From Armatimonadota bacterium (GTDB lineage: Bacteria; Armatimonadota; UBA5829): a stretch of 64,000 nucleotides of DNA. The stretch spans positions 1 to 64,000 of the forward strand of contig JBDKUO010000025.1 in NCBI GenBank assembly GCA_039679645.1. The letters are read 5' to 3'. Of the stretch, positions 180 to 51,595 are shown piece after piece (within the stretch, counting starts at the first letter, position 1; every line of letters starts with the position of its first letter). A model generated the notes under the pieces. It was not told where the DNA came from and searched no databases. It saw only the letters and a list, made by a program, of their open reading frames with translations. The position numbers and the translations under genes are program-made.

Positions 180-207
180 ACTGCCGACTGCCGACAGCCA
201 ACTAATC
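180..207. repeat. short heptad array at the dnaN 3' end
   Basis: Four in-phase 7-nt units, ACTGCCG twice followed by two degenerate copies, run across the dnaN stop codon (202-204). It is the shortest member of the array family described in the findings. Confidence 0.5.
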
Positions 208-4776: not shown

Positions 4777-4813
4777 CCCCTTCCCTCTCCCGCCAACGGG
4801 GAGACGGAAGGGG
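4777..4813 (-). repeat. strong inverted repeat between pgk and the small gene
   Basis: Arms CCCCTTCCCTCTCCC and its near-complement pair over about 15 bp with one mismatch around a short loop. On the minus strand it is followed by TTTGG. It could be a dispersed repeat, an mRNA-processing hairpin or a weak attenuator that lowers expression of the genes after pgk. Confidence 0.65.
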
Positions 4814-4846
4814 ATCTGTTGCCAATTGCCTATCTTACTTATCCTG
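4812..4846. repeat. short heptad array at the pgk 3' end
   Basis: About five 7-nt units (TTGCCAA, TTGCCTA and degenerate neighbours) run across the pgk stop codon at 4835-4837. The unit resembles that at the mutL 3' end (11528-11569). Confidence 0.45.
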
Positions 4847-11376: not shown

Positions 11377-11423
11377 GTTTAGTATTTTGGGATTTTGTAT
11401 TGATTATCGGATTGTTGATTGCG
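11377..11423. repeat. ATTTNGT-type heptad array (copy 1)
   Basis: Seven-base units such as ATTTTGT and ATTGATT. The first about 29 bases recur almost exactly at 33508-33549, 22 kb away, so this one is also a dispersed repeat. Confidence 0.65.
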
Positions 11424-11527: not shown

Positions 11528-11569
11528 GAAACTGTTGCCTGTGCCCTATTGCCTGTTACCTATATTCTA
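11528..11569. repeat. heptad array across the mutL stop
   Basis: Six in-phase 7-nt units (TTGCCTG, TGCCCTA, TTACCTA and relatives). The mutL stop codon at 11560-11562 and its last codons lie inside it. Confidence 0.7.
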
Positions 11570-13407
11570 TGAAACTTGCGGTCGAGTTCCCAGTTTGACA
11601 GACTGATGATTATCGGCCTGCCATGCGGGCAGACGAAGGGGTTGTCGGTCTGCATGAGGTCCTCGACGAGCCGCTCCATCTCAGGCATTGAGAGTTGCTC
11701 ACCAGCCTTGATCGCCATCTTGCAGGACGCAGTGATCAAGACCTGGTCCGGTCGAACGAGCAAGTGCTTGGATATACTCAAATCCACTAGTTCCTGGATC
11801 ATATCGCGCAGAGTGCTTTCGGCCTCTTCGAGTTTTACATTGGCGGGCGCGCCGCGCATAACAAATGTGTTCTGCCCAAAAGGTTCAAGCTCGTAGCCTG
11901 ATTTGTGGATATCCTCCAACCTCTGCTTGACGATTGCGCTCTCCTTTGCGCTCAGTGAGAGCGTAATTGGAACAACCAGACCCTGAATAGCGATCCCGCG
12001 CTCTTCACGTGACTTCATCATACGCTCAAAGAGCACCCGCTCATGCGCGACATGCTGGTCTATGATGAGTACGCCGTCGTCGCACTGTGCAAGTATGTAT
12101 AAGTTTCTAGCCTGACCTATTACTTTTACTCCATGGAGCGATACTGCACGCGCTGCATCAAAATCGGCCTCCGGTACAGGTGACTCTTCAATGGGGACGC
12201 CCTGCCCTTTTGTCCAGACGAATGGATCATCAGTTGCTGACTCGGATATGGCGACCTCACGTCTCTCTGCCAAAGCCTGCTTAAAAGCCTCCAGATCGGT
12301 CTCTGACGGCTCTATCAGGCTGCCCTGATGAGCCTGCCTGGGCATGAAATCGGGGATTGGGCGATGCTGCTGTGCCGAACCGGTGTTGGAAATCGTCGGA
12401 GCGGCTGCGCCCTCCATCAGAGCCTCGTTCACCGCTCTGTGAACCGCGCTGTGTATCTCATTTTCGCTGGAGAACTTAACTTCAGTCTTGGTGGGGTGGA
12501 CATTGACATCGACAAGCTCGGGCACAAGGTCAATAAAGAGCACGGCGACAGCAAAGCGTCCTGGCTGCAGCAGACCGCGATATGCCTGGTCGAGAGCGTG
12601 AGTAATCGTGCGGCTCTTTATCGGCCTGCCGTTTACAAAGAAGACCTGGTCGCGGCGGTTGATCTTGGTGAGCTGCGGGTTGGATACAAAACCCTCGACT
12701 TTCATCACGGTTGTCTCGAACTTGACCGGCGCAAGCTGCCTGGCGATATCTTTTCCCATAACCTGAGTGATGCTGTTCAGGCGAATGCCGGTCCCGGGTG
12801 AGAGCAAGACTTCGCGGCCGCCATGGATCAGCCTGAAATGGATAGACGGATACGCCATGGCAAACCAGCCGACAATCTCGGCTATGTGGGACAACTCTGT
12901 TTGAGAAGATTTCAAAAACTTTAACCGCGCCGGGGTATTAAAGAAGAGTTTCTTTACAGATATTGCGGTTCCTTGCGGTGCGCCGACTGATTCTAGATTG
13001 GTGATAGTCCCTGCCTCCACCTCCAGCCGGACGCCGTCTGACGATTCGCTCTTGGTAATCATTTCGATCACCGAAACTGAGGCAATACTCGGCAGGGCCT
13101 CACCGCGAAAACCCAGGGTGCTGATAGACTCCAAATCCTCCGCGTCCCTGATCTTGGAAGTGGCGTGGCGCTGAAGGGAGAGCACTGCATCGTCACGACC
13201 CATGCCGCAGCCGTTATCGACTATCTTGATAAGGTCCTTGCCACCTTCTTCAAGGGTGATGCTGATGGAAGATGCCCCTGCATCAATCGAATTCTCTACA
13301 AGCTCCTTAACCACCGAAGCCGGGCGTTCGACAACCTCGCCCGCCGCTATACGGTTTGCGGTGTGCTCGTCGAGGAGGGATATTTTGTTGTGCGTTACAC
13401 TTTCCAA
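11560..13407 (-). CDS. mutL: DNA mismatch repair protein MutL (endonuclease type)
   Basis: 615 aa. The GHKL ATPase N-terminus has ELVENSIDAGA, DNGCGM and GFRGEALPSI. The C-terminal dimer domain carries DQHVAHERVLFE near residue 450, with ASCK and CPHGRP near the end. These are the metal-binding motifs of nicking MutL proteins from bacteria without MutH, so it is expected to nick the new strand itself. The start is TTG at 13407; a GTG three codons later is an alternative. Order is mutS then mutL, co-oriented but separated by a 429-bp repeat-filled spacer, so they may not be one transcript. Confidence 0.96.
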   Translation of the reverse strand: MESVTHNKISLLDEHTANRIAAGEVVERPASVVKELVENSIDAGASSISITLEEGGKDLIKIVDNGCGMGRDDAVLSLQRHATSKIRDAEDLESISTLGFRGEALPSIASVSVIEMITKSESSDGVRLEVEAGTITNLESVGAPQGTAISVKKLFFNTPARLKFLKSSQTELSHIAEIVGWFAMAYPSIHFRLIHGGREVLLSPGTGIRLNSITQVMGKDIARQLAPVKFETTVMKVEGFVSNPQLTKINRRDQVFFVNGRPIKSRTITHALDQAYRGLLQPGRFAVAVLFIDLVPELVDVNVHPTKTEVKFSSENEIHSAVHRAVNEALMEGAAAPTISNTGSAQQHRPIPDFMPRQAHQGSLIEPSETDLEAFKQALAERREVAISESATDDPFVWTKGQGVPIEESPVPEADFDAARAVSLHGVKVIGQARNLYILAQCDDGVLIIDQHVAHERVLFERMMKSREERGIAIQGLVVPITLSLSAKESAIVKQRLEDIHKSGYELEPFGQNTFVMRGAPANVKLEEAESTLRDMIQELVDLSISKHLLVRPDQVLITASCKMAIKAGEQLSMPEMERLVEDLMQTDNPFVCPHGRPIIISLSNWELDRKFHRI

Positions 13408-13426
13408 AGATAATTCTTTCTTATCA

Positions 13427-13458
13427 CGAAAACACGAAAGGGTGAAAACACGAAATTA
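13427..13458. repeat. CGAAANNN octad array upstream of mutL
   Basis: Four in-phase 8-nt units: CGAAAACA, CGAAAGGG, TGAAAACA and CGAAATTA, 20 bases upstream of the mutL start. A matching array is placed the same way before mutS (16468-16499). Confidence 0.75.
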
Positions 13459-13476: not shown

Positions 13477-13635
13477 TCGGGCGCGATATCCGATCAGTTG
13501 TGTTGCAGATCGTCGGGGATTTTAATCCCCGACGCACGTATTAGGACTTTAGTCCTCGAACCGGCGTCTAGTTTATTGATAACTTGCCAAGGATTAAAAT
13601 CCTTGATATTTTTGTCCGGGATTCAAATCCCGGAC
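13477..13635. repeat. palindrome mosaic in the mutS-mutL spacer
   Basis: Starts with TCGGGCGCGATATC (shared with 28353). It then holds four perfect palindromes of one design with different arms: GTCGGGGATT/AATCCCCGAC at 13512-13533, AGGACT/AGTCCT at 13543-13556, CAAGGATT/AATCCTTG at 13588-13605 and GTCCGGGATT/AATCCCGGAC at 13614-13635. No coding sequence is convincing in 13408-13836. Confidence 0.75.
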
Positions 13636-13666
13636 CATCGGGGCACTTATTACAAATCAGAATTGT

Positions 13667-13776: not shown

Positions 13777-13860
13777 ACTTTCCACTTTCCACTTTCAGCT
13801 TTCCGCTCTGGACTCTTTACTCTCCACCCTCCACTCTCAACTCTTCACTATCTGCTTCTG
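13777..13860. repeat. long heptad array across the mutS stop
   Basis: Twelve consecutive 7-nt units in perfect phase, from ACTTTCC through ACTCTCC to ACTATCT. Nearly all follow RCTNTNN. It is the clearest array in the window. The mutS stop (13837-13839) and the last seven codons lie inside it. Confidence 0.9.
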
Positions 13861-16443
13861 CAGCTCATAGAGCTTATTCATAGCCTCAATCGGCGACATG
13901 GTAGCGATATCCAACTTTTCGATCTCATCAACTACCGGGTGCTTCTCACCCTCAAAAAGAGTAAGCTGAAGAGTCTCGCGCTTGGCGTTTACTTTTGCGC
14001 CTTTGCCGGTGGCTTTAGAGCCTGCACCATTGGATTCAAGGTCTTTGAGGATTTCTTTCGCCCGCTCGATTGCGTCATTTGGCAAGCCGGCAAGCCGGGC
14101 GACTTCTATACCGTAGCTCCTATCCGTGCCGCCTGGCATGATCTTGCGCAGCCATACTATCCGGTCTTTTTCCTCGCGCACTGCAATACGATAGTTCTTG
14201 ACCCCCTTGAGCTGTTTTTCAAGGTCATTGAGCTGGTGATAGTGCGTAGCAAAGAGTGTCTTTGCGCTGAGTTTGTTGATTTCTTCAGCAACTGCCCATG
14301 CAATCGAGAGGCCGTCGTAGGTGGATGTCCCCCGCCCTATCTCGTCAAGCACGATCAGAGACCGGCGTGTGGCATTATTTAAGATGTTGGCGGTCTCGTT
14401 CATTTCGACCATAAACGTCGATTGGCCACTGGCAAGCTCATCATGTGCTCCGACGCGTGTGAATATGCGGTCCACCACGCCGATTTGAGCCTCATCCGCC
14501 GGGACAAAGCTTCCCATCTGAGCCAGCAGCACGATCAGCGCGACCTGGCGCAGATACGTCGATTTGCCCGCCATGTTCGGGCCGGTGATGATCAATAGTT
14601 CATCCGAATCGCAGTTGACCAGCGTGTCGTTCGGGACAAAGCGCTCCTCTATGAAGTGCTCGACCACAGGATGGCGTCCATTTTCGATCCTGAGTTCCTC
14701 GCCGTCGGTAACGACCGGCTTTACGAAACCTTTTATAGAGGCTATCTCGGCAAGAGAGGCCAATACGTCTATCTCTGCCACTGCCCGCGCTACTTTTGCG
14801 ACCTTGAGAGCCTCATCTGCAACGGAGCTCCTCACCTCGCAAAACACTTTGTATTCGAGGTCGGCGGCTTTTTCGTCCGCACCCAGAACTTTCGCCTCCA
14901 TCTCCTTCAGACCCGGAGTAATGAAGCGCTCGGCGTTGGTGGTGGTCTGCTTGCGAATGTAGTCCTCGGGCACCAAGCTTAGATTGGGCTTGGTGACCTC
15001 CAGATAATAGCCGAAGACCGAATTATAGCCAACCTTGAGGTTCTTGATGCATGTGCGCTCGCGCTCGCCGGCCTCCAGGCTTGCTATCCAACTCTTGCCG
15101 TCTCGTGAGGCATGACGAAGCTCGTCCAGGTCGGTATTATAACCCTCGGCGATGATCCCGCCCTCACGGATTTGAATCGGAGGGTCGGGCACTATAGCTT
15201 TGTCGATCAGTTCAACCAGCGGGTCGAGAAACTCGATTGCCGACGAAAGAGTCTTTAAGCGCTCTGTCGATACATTTTGAAGGGCGGTTACGAGCCTCGG
15301 AAGCTGTTTAAGTGAGAGCGCCAGACCGACCAGATCGCGAGCATTAGCGCTCTCGGCAACTATTCGCGACATCAGCCTTTCGAGGTCCTGCACGCCGCCC
15401 AGTATCTCACGGACCTCGCCGCGCATCATTGCATCGTTATAAAGCTCCTCAACGCTATCCAGACGCCTGTTGATCTGTCGGATATCCAGCAATGGCTGAT
15501 CGAGCCACTTGCGCAGGGTGCGTCCGCCCATCGCCGTGCAGGTCTTATCTATAATCGAAAGGAGGCTTGCGCCGCGAGTCTCGGCGGACATAGAGTGTGT
15601 TAGCTCCAAATTTCGGCGTGCGGCCGCGTCCAGAACCATAAACCCGCTGGTCGAGTATGTGGACATAGTAGAGACGGACTGCAGCGCGTTGGCATTGGTC
15701 TGCTTGAGGTAATCCAGGACCATTGCAGCCGCTTCGAGGCCAGCAGTCATATCCTCAGCGCCGAAGCCGCGCAGTGAATCCGTGTGGAAGTGCTCGGTTA
15801 GCATCTCCTTGGCGGCTTTGCGATAGATAGAGTTGTCCTCGTATCGAGTGACTGCCGCGCCTGTCGTGCGGCGTATCGGATCGGAAAGGTCAAGCTCCAT
15901 CTCCTTTATCAGAACTTCGGCGGGAGAGAGCCTGCCAAGCTCCTCAATGAGCTTTTGAGAGCCGTGCTTGGCGTCGATCTCGGTCACGGCGAACTCGCCC
16001 GTGGAGATATCGACCACCGCCACTCCGTATATATCAGGCTCGCTGGCCAATGCGACCAGATAATTATTTGCCTTTGCATCAAGCATGCCGTCTTCGAGGA
16101 CTGTGCCGGGTGTGACTACACGGGTGACGCCGCGCTTAACTATCTTCTTGGTCTTTTTTGGGTCTTCGAGCTGATCGCATATCGCGACGCGATAGCCCTT
16201 GGATATAAGCCTGGCGACATATCTCTCGACGGCATGATGCGGAAAGCCGCACATAGGCACATCGACAGCATAGCCCTGGGACCGGCTGGTAAGCACGATC
16301 TCAAGCTCGCGGCTGGCAGTGGCGGCATCGTCCCCGAACATCTCATAGAAGTCGCCGAGGCGGAACATCAGTATAACATCAGGATATTGCTCCTTGATGG
16401 CCTGATACTGAGCCACCATAGGAGTTACTTTTTTTGCGTCCAA
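13837..16443 (-). CDS. mutS: DNA mismatch recognition protein MutS
   Basis: 868 aa, normal length. Mismatch-reading Phe-x-Glu is F32-Y-E34 in GDFYEMF. The ABC-type ATPase has Walker A GPNMAGKST near residue 620, then LDEIGRGTST and ATHYHQL. It binds mismatches and recruits MutL. The start is TTG at 16443, 7 nt after TGGAGAATC-type ribosome-binding bases. The last residues (KQIVKS) are encoded by the heptad array. Confidence 0.97.
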   Translation of the reverse strand: MDAKKVTPMVAQYQAIKEQYPDVILMFRLGDFYEMFGDDAATASRELEIVLTSRSQGYAVDVPMCGFPHHAVERYVARLISKGYRVAICDQLEDPKKTKKIVKRGVTRVVTPGTVLEDGMLDAKANNYLVALASEPDIYGVAVVDISTGEFAVTEIDAKHGSQKLIEELGRLSPAEVLIKEMELDLSDPIRRTTGAAVTRYEDNSIYRKAAKEMLTEHFHTDSLRGFGAEDMTAGLEAAAMVLDYLKQTNANALQSVSTMSTYSTSGFMVLDAAARRNLELTHSMSAETRGASLLSIIDKTCTAMGGRTLRKWLDQPLLDIRQINRRLDSVEELYNDAMMRGEVREILGGVQDLERLMSRIVAESANARDLVGLALSLKQLPRLVTALQNVSTERLKTLSSAIEFLDPLVELIDKAIVPDPPIQIREGGIIAEGYNTDLDELRHASRDGKSWIASLEAGERERTCIKNLKVGYNSVFGYYLEVTKPNLSLVPEDYIRKQTTTNAERFITPGLKEMEAKVLGADEKAADLEYKVFCEVRSSVADEALKVAKVARAVAEIDVLASLAEIASIKGFVKPVVTDGEELRIENGRHPVVEHFIEERFVPNDTLVNCDSDELLIITGPNMAGKSTYLRQVALIVLLAQMGSFVPADEAQIGVVDRIFTRVGAHDELASGQSTFMVEMNETANILNNATRRSLIVLDEIGRGTSTYDGLSIAWAVAEEINKLSAKTLFATHYHQLNDLEKQLKGVKNYRIAVREEKDRIVWLRKIMPGGTDRSYGIEVARLAGLPNDAIERAKEILKDLESNGAGSKATGKGAKVNAKRETLQLTLFEGEKHPVVDEIEKLDIATMSPIEAMNKLYELQKQIVKS

Positions 16444-16467
16444 TCAGATTCTCCAGAGATTTAATCG

Positions 16468-16499
16468 CGAAAACACGAAAGAGCGAAAGCACGAAATCT
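16468..16499. repeat. CGAAANNN octad array upstream of mutS
   Basis: Four in-phase 8-nt units: CGAAAACA, CGAAAGAG, CGAAAGCA and CGAAATCT, 25 bases upstream of the mutS start. It matches the array before mutL in unit, number and position. Confidence 0.75.
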
Positions 16500-16761: not shown

Positions 16762-16793
16762 ACGATCAGACGATCAAACCATCAAACGATATC
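16762..16793. repeat. ACGATCAA octad array across the miaB stop
   Basis: Four in-phase 8-nt units ACGATCAG, ACGATCAA, ACCATCAA and ACGATATC. The miaB stop (16782-16784) lies inside. Confidence 0.65.
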
Positions 16794-23458: not shown

Positions 23459-23466
23459 ATTTACCT

Positions 23467-23539
23467 GCGTTATGAGTTATGGGTTATGAGTTGTGAGTTA
23501 TGGGTTACCTGATTGTCTGGGTTACGAGTTTTAAGTTAC
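23467..23539. repeat. GAGTTAT heptad array upstream of gpsA
   Basis: Six perfect-phase 7-nt units (GCGTTAT, GAGTTAT, GGGTTAT, GAGTTGT, GAGTTAT, GGGTTAC). A 10-nt break is followed by three more. It sits 9 bases before the gpsA start, in its untranslated or promoter region. Confidence 0.88.
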
Positions 23540-28288: not shown

Positions 28289-28323
28289 AGTGGAGAGCGG
28301 AGAGTTGAGAGTGGAGAGCCCGG
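28289..28323. repeat. AGTGGAG heptad array upstream of ubiB
   Basis: Five in-phase 7-nt units (AGTGGAG, AGCGGAG, AGTTGAG, AGTGGAG, AGCCCGG). The unit is close to that at 51524-51565 and to the complement of the mutS array. Confidence 0.78.
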
Positions 28324-28352
28324 AACAGACACCACTCAGTTATACCCAATGA

Positions 28353-33507: not shown

Positions 33508-33549
33508 ATTTAGTATTTGGGATTTTGTATTGATTATTTGATTGTTTGA
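33508..33549. repeat. ATTTNGT-type heptad array (copy 2)
   Basis: Five in-phase 7-nt units (ATTTAGT, ATTTGGG, ATTTTGT, ATTGATT, ATTTGAT) just after the isomerase stop. The first about 29 bases match 11377-11405. Confidence 0.75.
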
Positions 33550-34534: not shown

Positions 34535-34613
34535 GTCATAACGTCATGCGTCATAGCGTCGTGCGTCAAATCGTCTCGACGTTATGACGTTGTGACATTA
34601 TGACTTTGTGACG
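34535..34613. repeat. mixed 7/8-nt array forming a long hairpin before mcsA
   Basis: The left half repeats GTC every 7 or 8 nt (34535, 34543, 34550, 34558, 34565, 34573). The right half repeats GAC every 8 nt (34578 to 34610). The halves are complementary (AATGTCATAACGTC against GACGTTGTGACATT), so one imperfect hairpin spans the ilvE-mcsA spacer. The place is where CtsR operators stand in Bacillus, but GGTCAAA repeats are absent. Confidence 0.8.
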
Positions 34614-36073: not shown

Positions 36074-36158
36074 ATTAAGAGTTTAGAATTAAGAGTTAAG
36101 AATTATAGCGCTTGCCGGCCTTTGGAATTCTTAATTCCTAATTCTCAATTCTTAACTA
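36074..36158. repeat. paired inverted heptad arrays before clpC
   Basis: Left: five 7-nt units of the ATTAAGA/GTTAAGA type (36074-36108). Right: five units of the TTAATTC/CTAATTC type (36124-36158), which are the complement. The two arrays face each other across 15 bp and could fold into a long hairpin between mcsB and clpC. Confidence 0.85.
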
Positions 36159-51523: not shown

Positions 51524-51565
51524 AGATAGCTGAGAGTGGAGAGTGGAGAGCTAAGAGTCCTGACT
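51524..51565. repeat. GGAGAGT heptad array upstream of mtlD
   Basis: Six in-phase 7-nt units (AGATAGC, TGAGAGT, GGAGAGT, GGAGAGC, TAAGAGT, CCTGACT), 13 bases before the mtlD start. Confidence 0.75.
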
Positions 51566-51595
51566 CGTAACCGCTCAGTCAGCTGTTTTTTTGAT

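Follow-up and report, generated by a model that had tools for sequence, protein, structure and literature searches.

Why should spacers that share no obvious sequence share a period? In the window, a 64,000-nucleotide stretch of contig C25 from a 3.41-Mb genome bin (labelled G000), an earlier note had listed fifteen spacers or gene ends holding arrays of degenerate 7- or 8-nt units, several of them around mutS and mutL. The literature has recorded an excess of heptamers in the spacers of bacteria since 2007. As cited in PMC4679880 and PMC4692102, Mrazek 2007 reported heptamers as the most abundant longer-SSR class in most bacterial genomes and proposed polymerase slippage as their cause; such repeats are thus peculiar neither to G000 nor to cyanobacteria.

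Period and position of the arrays

Of the genome bin, 1.08 of 3.41 Mb was examined. Periodicity was scored as maximal lag-k self-match segments (match +1, mismatch -1, score of at least 11), with segments attributable to a shorter period discarded. Genes were called with a home-made hexamer caller, and distances to gene edges may be off where starts are wrong. A first set of 77.3 kb of called intergenic DNA, taken from 0.70 Mb of G000, contained 48 lag-7 segments, compared with 0.2 in dinucleotide shuffles and 0.9 in length-scaled coding DNA; lag 8 gave 13 segments, compared with 0.1 and 0, and the remaining lags gave 0 (lag 5), 6 (lag 6), 2 (lag 9) and 5 (lag 10). In a larger set of 135.6 kb, 89 segments were found at lag 7 and 27 at lag 8, and no other lag between 4 and 13 gave more than 7. 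Coding DNA is almost free of lag-7 and lag-8 segments. The global autocorrelation peaks at lag 7 (z 5.6) and lag 14 (z 7.0), and more weakly at lag 8 (z 3.7); it is also raised at lags 2, 3, 9, 12, 15 and 21, those at multiples of 3 probably reflecting uncalled genes.

The 7- and 8-nt intergenic arrays are real. The period is intergenic and sharply 7, then 8, and the phase is retained over several units, both as had been proposed. Ten of the fifteen listed sites were recovered by period and four more as copies of recurrent families (Table 1), while 4812-4846 drops out, with only about two TTGCCWA units and a lag-7 identity of 0.36. An assembly artefact was ruled out by the presence of the same families at related sites in the separately assembled genomes G001, G003, G004 and G005. 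A search of Rfam gave no match to the arrays.

Table 1. Arrays, hairpins and context genes in the window; the nhmmer E-values of 11378, 11532, 13423 and 33508 come from models hand-built from family members, with 11378 and 33508 among the seeds, and are therefore partly circular.
Feature	Position	Strand	Support
Short ACTGCCG heptad array, 3' end of gene 202-1362	180..202	+	lag-7 score 12
ATTTAGT-family array, mutL-der spacer	11378..11416	+	nhmmer E 1e-5
CAGGTAA-family arm, mutL 3' end	11532..11563	-	nhmmer E 1.5e-6
mutL (context)	11560..13407	-	NCBIfam TIGR00585, 551 bits
CACGAAAA-family octads, upstream of mutL	13423..13456	+	nhmmer E 1.7e-5
GAGTGG-family heptad array, 10.4 units	13777..13849	-	lag-7 score 34, strongest of the listed sites
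mutS (context)	13837..16443	-	NCBIfam TIGR01070, 1029 bits
CACGAAAA-family octads, 19 nt upstream of mutS start	16463..16496	+	lag-8 score 12; nhmmer E 4.5e-7
GATCAAAC/TTTGATCG octads, miaB 3' end	16762..16790	-	lag-8 score 15
TGAGTTA heptads, 7 nt upstream of gpsA-like gene	23466..23507	+	lag-7 score 23
GAGTGG-family element (4 heptads + CCCGGA..CTCAGTTA), upstream of ubiB-like gene	28289..28344	+	nhmmer E 2.6e-8; heptads 28289-28318 pass period test
ATTTAGT-family array, directly after stop codon	33508..33545	+	nhmmer E 2e-6
Complete octad-arm hairpin (GTCATAAC.. / ..GTTATGAC), upstream of probable mcs-clpC operon	34535..34612	+	MFE -39.8 kcal/mol, z -4.9; lag-8 score 17; 34578-34612 passes period test
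Complete heptad-arm hairpin (arms 36075-36105 and 36126-36155), between mcsB-like and clp-like genes	36075..36155	+	inverted score 22 vs control mean 6.7; MFE -29.5, z -4.8; both arms pass period test
GAGTGG-family element, ~16 nt upstream of mannitol-1-phosphate 5-dehydrogenase-like gene	51525..51584	+	nhmmer E 1.8e-16; heptads 51525-51557 pass period test

The arrays keep close to genes: among those with room to move, 32 of 49 have a gene edge no more than 25 nt away, compared with 12.3 expected, a preference that purifying selection against gene damage would in part produce on its own. Co-oriented junctions are favoured (81/358 vs 15/147, p 0.001), and the neighbouring genes have no function in common.

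Recurrent families and complementary arms

When aligned outward from the nearest gene, the arrays sort into a limited set of dispersed, recurrent families. The unit thus varies from site to site, as had been described, although only among these families. The largest, GAGTGG, has the form (GAGAGYK)n-CCCGGAC and, in full, AGCTGAGAGCGGAGAGTGGAGAGCTAAGAGCCCGGAC-N9-CGCTCAGTTA. By profile, 29 copies of this element were found in 1.08 Mb of G000, all intergenic; the sister genome G004 (0.9 Mb searched) yielded 7 and G001 (0.12 Mb) yielded 3. The heptad part is mostly 28 nt long, with variants near 21, 35 and 70 nt. The family consists mainly of single arms with a conserved 57-nt extension, set at a fixed distance from start codons: 16 of the 21 start-side copies stand 14-21 nt upstream of the start codon. 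This spares the ribosome-binding site, immediately ahead of which the leader carries the pyrimidine-rich strand. The stop-side copies (8/29) have the opposite sense, and seven of these eight are no more than 6 nt from the stop codon.

The second family keeps the unit order ATTTAGT-ATTTGGG-ATTTTGT-ATTGATT at unrelated loci in both G000 and G004; the others are CAGGTAA, the octads CACGAAAA and the octads GTCATAAC. Since copies at unrelated loci agree both in how their distinct units are ordered and in their conserved flanks, sequence, including unit order, has been copied between loci. This does not support the suggestion that length is copied rather than sequence. Arrays of four units make up 43 of 89 in G000, a count in which the score threshold hides shorter arrays and which is therefore partly an effect of that threshold; the predominance of 28-nt heptad parts among GAGTGG copies is independent of it.

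Single-linkage clustering of units at 6/7 joined 135 of 140 arrays together; chance links are frequent, which makes the result uninformative. Exact heptads are common to different genera in 2.5% of G000-G005 pairs, compared with 0 in the reversed control. Pattern scans across the phylum (291 genomes) found CAGGTAA in 9 and GAGTGG in 14, with a reversed control that was empty for CAGGTAA and not for GAGTGG; the scans therefore point to recurrence of a sporadic kind and not to homology.

Many arrays have a complementary partner. An inverted partner in the same spacer (score of at least 12) was found for 27 of 102 arrays and a direct one for 6 of 102 (p 9e-5); with matched controls, a partner arm is present at p<=0.05 for 15 of 46 heptad and 5 of 13 octad arrays. 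Pure length copying would not predict two complementary arms. Four of five complete hairpins fold, relative to shuffles, at z -4.5 to -5.5 (the fifth at z -1.6), and lone arms show no such folding. About three quarters of the arrays have no recognisable partner arm, and the hairpin origin of most arrays is for this reason a matter of inference. The array at 13777..13849, which overlaps the last 13 nt of mutS and runs outward from there, is probably a lone arm; its single strand does not fold.

The G-rich strand points outward from the nearer gene edge in ratios of 69:17 (G000), 36:15 (G004) and 26:9 (G017), a polarity that comes mainly from two families (17:10, p 0.25 without them) and from which the octads depart. 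A general rule of strand polarity is not claimed, as the trend is non-significant outside the two families. The outward polarity would follow from the hairpins, because their 5' arm is G-rich in most families.

Filled and empty junctions in related genomes

Complete hairpins are present or absent as blocks between congeners. An octad hairpin occupies a 92-nt spacer that measures 3 nt in the relative, a CAGGCAA hairpin an 84-nt spacer that measures 2 nt, a TGATGGTT/ACCATCAA hairpin has overlapping genes as its empty counterpart, and a hairpin of G001 corresponds to 12 nt. Inspection by eye of five filled/empty pairs, whose flanks have diverged, showed no target-site duplication.

The mutL-der spacer holds a complete CAGGTAA hairpin in G004 and one arm plus other insertions in G000, the partner of the arm at 11532..11563 being present in G004 and absent in G000 by ortholog alignment. 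The G000 arm directly illustrates how a lone arm can be what is left of a hairpin. The DNA bearing the ATTTAGT array at 11378..11416 in the same spacer is missing from G004, G001 and G002.

The mutS-mutL junction is empty (6 nt) in G002, and in several other relatives a mutL-like start follows mutS. It is filled differently in each of G000, G003, G004, G001 and G005: the gap measures 429 nt in G000 and 2.8 kb in G003, both with GAGTGG heptads, 1.6 kb in G004, with ATTTAGT heptads, and 0.5 kb in G001, without heptads of either family. The GAGTGG family recurs at this junction in G005, which belongs to another genus, and a TTTCGAGTTTTCGCG relative occupies in G004 the position equivalent to 13423..13456. 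The junction gives the impression of having received insertions repeatedly. At the upstream edge of mutS, three families are found in four array-bearing species (CACGAAAA octads in G000, a CAGGTAA hairpin in G004, CTCTCC heptads in G001 and G003), and none in G002.

The extra DNA at the mutS-mutL junction differs in each species (L100 in G004, L101 in G003, L102 in G001) and apparently includes small, unrelated genes that by eye look acetyltransferase-like and membrane-like. In the window, 13505-13640 of the same spacer carries a row of differing palindromes with a GGATTnnAATCC-like core; about 20 such palindromes match a loose pattern across 1.08 Mb. The segment 16500-16700 contains CATTCCGAR..GGAATCTGC hairpin repeats, with 13 in 1.08 Mb by a loose pattern.

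Elsewhere in the window, conservation is mixed. The GAGTGG element at 28289..28344 is kept in place in G004, and the array at 33508..33545 has the same place and unit order there; the place of 23466..23507 is taken in G004 by a diverged array (AGTTTTT AGTCATT GGTTATT), and G003 has a similar TGATCGTTGATCGTTTGATCG at the miaB edge matching 16762..16790. Most of the arms of the hairpin at 34535..34612 are not conserved in G004, and the G004 spacer orthologous to 51525..51584 is 29 nt long and lacks the element.

Among 131 orthologous G000/G004 spacers, arrays occur in 23 and 16, respectively, and in both genomes in 10. With one 100%-identical locus excluded, arrays stand at the same junction in both genomes 9 times, compared with 2.5 expected (p 6e-5).

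A separate observation concerns G000:C23:3060-4119, where G000 and G004 match at 100% identity over a 1059-nt spacer and the gene on either side of it. Identity between their other proteins is about 86%, and the match would be either a recent transfer or cross-binning.

Origin of the arrays and comparison with known repeats

It is proposed, with moderate confidence, that short, non-autonomous insertion elements of hairpin shape lie in the gene junctions and that each array is an arm of such an element, often without its partner. Several families of elements, each of about 60-110 nt, would enter gene junctions. A complete element would consist of a 28-34 nt arm (about four 7/8-nt units), usually G-rich on the 5' side, a loop of about 8-40 nt and the complementary arm. 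Insertions would survive where the stop codon and the ribosome-binding site are spared, leaving arms that abut gene edges, and later insertions and decay would turn complete elements into lone arms, the majority of visible arrays. The copies would disperse within the genome in a transposition-like manner, presumably through an enzyme, carrying their unit pattern with them, so that the period would be inherited by copying; slippage of whole units would then lengthen or shorten single arrays. Dispersal is inferred here because of the families and the filled/empty sites. Against hairpin elements, the single arms of the GAGTGG family and their fixed distance to start codons also fit a leader element.

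In-place polymerase slippage that favours 7-nt steps, followed by decay through point mutation, with selection yielding the inverted pairs and the edge positions, is possible but rather unlikely as the main origin. It agrees with the excess of lag 7 in a mixed sample of 80 MutS-neighbour loci (1.44 Mb; 42 segments vs at most 15 at the other tested lags), with the dominance of period 7 in unrelated bacteria reported in the literature, as relayed in PMC4679880 and PMC4692102, and with the unit-number variants among the GAGTGG copies. Long regular arrays reach about 31 units in G005 and 13 in G017, and similarity within the G005 and G017 arrays falls with distance, from 0.83 (lag 7) to 0.59 (lag 35), the pattern expected of local duplication. 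The arrays of G000 and G004 behave differently, their internal similarity remaining almost flat (0.73 to 0.68 over lags 14-35). Slippage, which the earlier note had put forward, is among the processes involved and is visible in the long graded arrays; against it as the main origin stand the unit order and flanks that unrelated loci have in common and the presence or absence of complete hairpins as blocks.

Alternatively, the arrays could be selected regulatory modules at transcript ends, such as sites for an RNA-binding protein (S1, for example) or hairpins of transcript ends, spread by selection and recombination and not by transposition. The precise placing of the start-side GAGTGG copies, the preference for co-oriented junctions, the recurrence at the same junctions in G000 and G004, and the retention of place and order by two families in both genomes all point in this direction, and S1 has been proposed for the TAACTGA repeats (PMC4679880). 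This origin is nevertheless doubtful: the GAGTGG element also stands at stop codons in the opposite sense, several start-side copies are missing in the sister species, different families occupy one edge in different species, and the neighbouring genes are functionally unrelated. Templated or length-copying synthesis, in which a reverse transcriptase or an end-healing enzyme would add 7-nt units of drifting sequence, is very improbable, since the outward G-rich polarity that it shares with telomere-like 3'-end addition is mainly that of two families and follows anyway from G-rich 5' hairpin arms, sequence is copied between loci, and a search of the genome bin for the RVT_1 family returned no match, leaving no visible enzyme for synthesis templated by a reverse transcriptase.

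Dispersal of hairpin elements copies a period, yet it does not create one in several unrelated families, and neither dispersal nor slippage accounts for the 7/8-nt unit that these families have in common. Tentatively, what is recognised or mobilised could be a hairpin with four 7/8-nt units per arm, of any sequence, an architecture kept in several phyla; we regard this as a long shot.

The closest likeness is to the repeats of Rehm 2015 (PMC4692102), intergenic GGGAATC / GGGGA(C/T)T heptamer repeats of Xanthomonas and Nostoc, mostly of four units. They form 70-75 convergent inverted pairs per Xanthomonas genome, have the G-rich strand close to its 5' gene and at a greater distance from the 3' one, lie mainly in co-oriented junctions, with divergent ones under-represented, and turn over between close species. 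The arrays described here are likewise intergenic heptamers with inverted pairs, a G-rich strand near the 5' gene (mainly in two families), co-oriented junctions and turnover between species. The repeats of Rehm 2015 have one G-quadruplex-capable unit per genome, whereas several families are found here, many AT-rich or without GGG, together with octads and filled/empty sites. Runs of at least three G are lacking in the GAGTGGA, CAGGTAA, ATTTAGT and CACGAAAA units, and G-quadruplexes were set aside as an explanation, most units being without GGG. By analogy, the arrays may work like Rehm-type repeats without being of the same family.

As over-represented, intergenic, tandem 7-nt units, the arrays fall within the LSSR/STRR class. 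They share with STRR and TAACTGA repeats (PMC4679880) a position that is often just upstream of start codons, and differ in that those repeats have one or few fixed units per genome and are mostly direct, as in the Beggiatoaceae TAACTGA set of 169 direct and 1 indirect repeats (MacGregor 2015, PMC4679880). STRR in the narrow sense, as in the described examples, have one fixed unit per genome; G000 has several families, and its arrays are for that reason not classed with them.

Dispersed copies, complementary ends and presence/absence between close genomes are also the marks of MITE/REPIN-like elements. REPINs are thought to be mobilised by RAYT transposases, with hairpin doublets spreading and singlets as remnants (PMC3116915). 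Doublets as the likely spreading unit, lone-arm remnants, intergenic position and multiple families are common to both; REPs, however, are short palindromes without heptad arms. A RAYT was considered as mobiliser and rejected: three Y1_Tnp proteins were found, and the locus read closely (L159) has its own palindrome and not heptads, the one heptad array there lying several hundred nt from the Y1_Tnp gene. As the transposase is not flanked by the same repeat, the arrays are not filed as REPINs. At L159:1340-2030 itself, copies of CTTCGGGGCATACGCCCGCGAAG stand on both sides of a RAYT-sized Y1-transposase gene and likely form a RAYT-REP pair with it.

The small dispersed repeats of cyanobacteria, which Elhai is said to have described in 2008, are reportedly very short intergenic elements thought to be mobile, like these; a heptad arm structure is not known to define them. 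What is new here is the occurrence of several families within a single genome, octads beside heptads, a conserved unit order and filled/empty sites.

The trait is patchy. In the DNA sampled, arrays are frequent in G000 and G004 and also in G005, G017 and G074, for which contigs had been selected because they hold such repeats, and are absent from G002 (same genus, 8 kb of intergenic DNA), G006, G011, G026 and 16 Lachnospiraceae loci. A genus with several families, filled/empty congeners and the array-free G002 makes slippage and a mobile hairpin testable against each other. If a mobile hairpin carries the period, part of the catalogued simple repeats would be mobile-element debris that shapes operon spacing.

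Finally, dispersed heptads with a conserved unit order (AAAAGCG-AATATCG-AACACCG-..-AAGTCCG) were noticed at a locus of the anammox group, L050:8314-10700.
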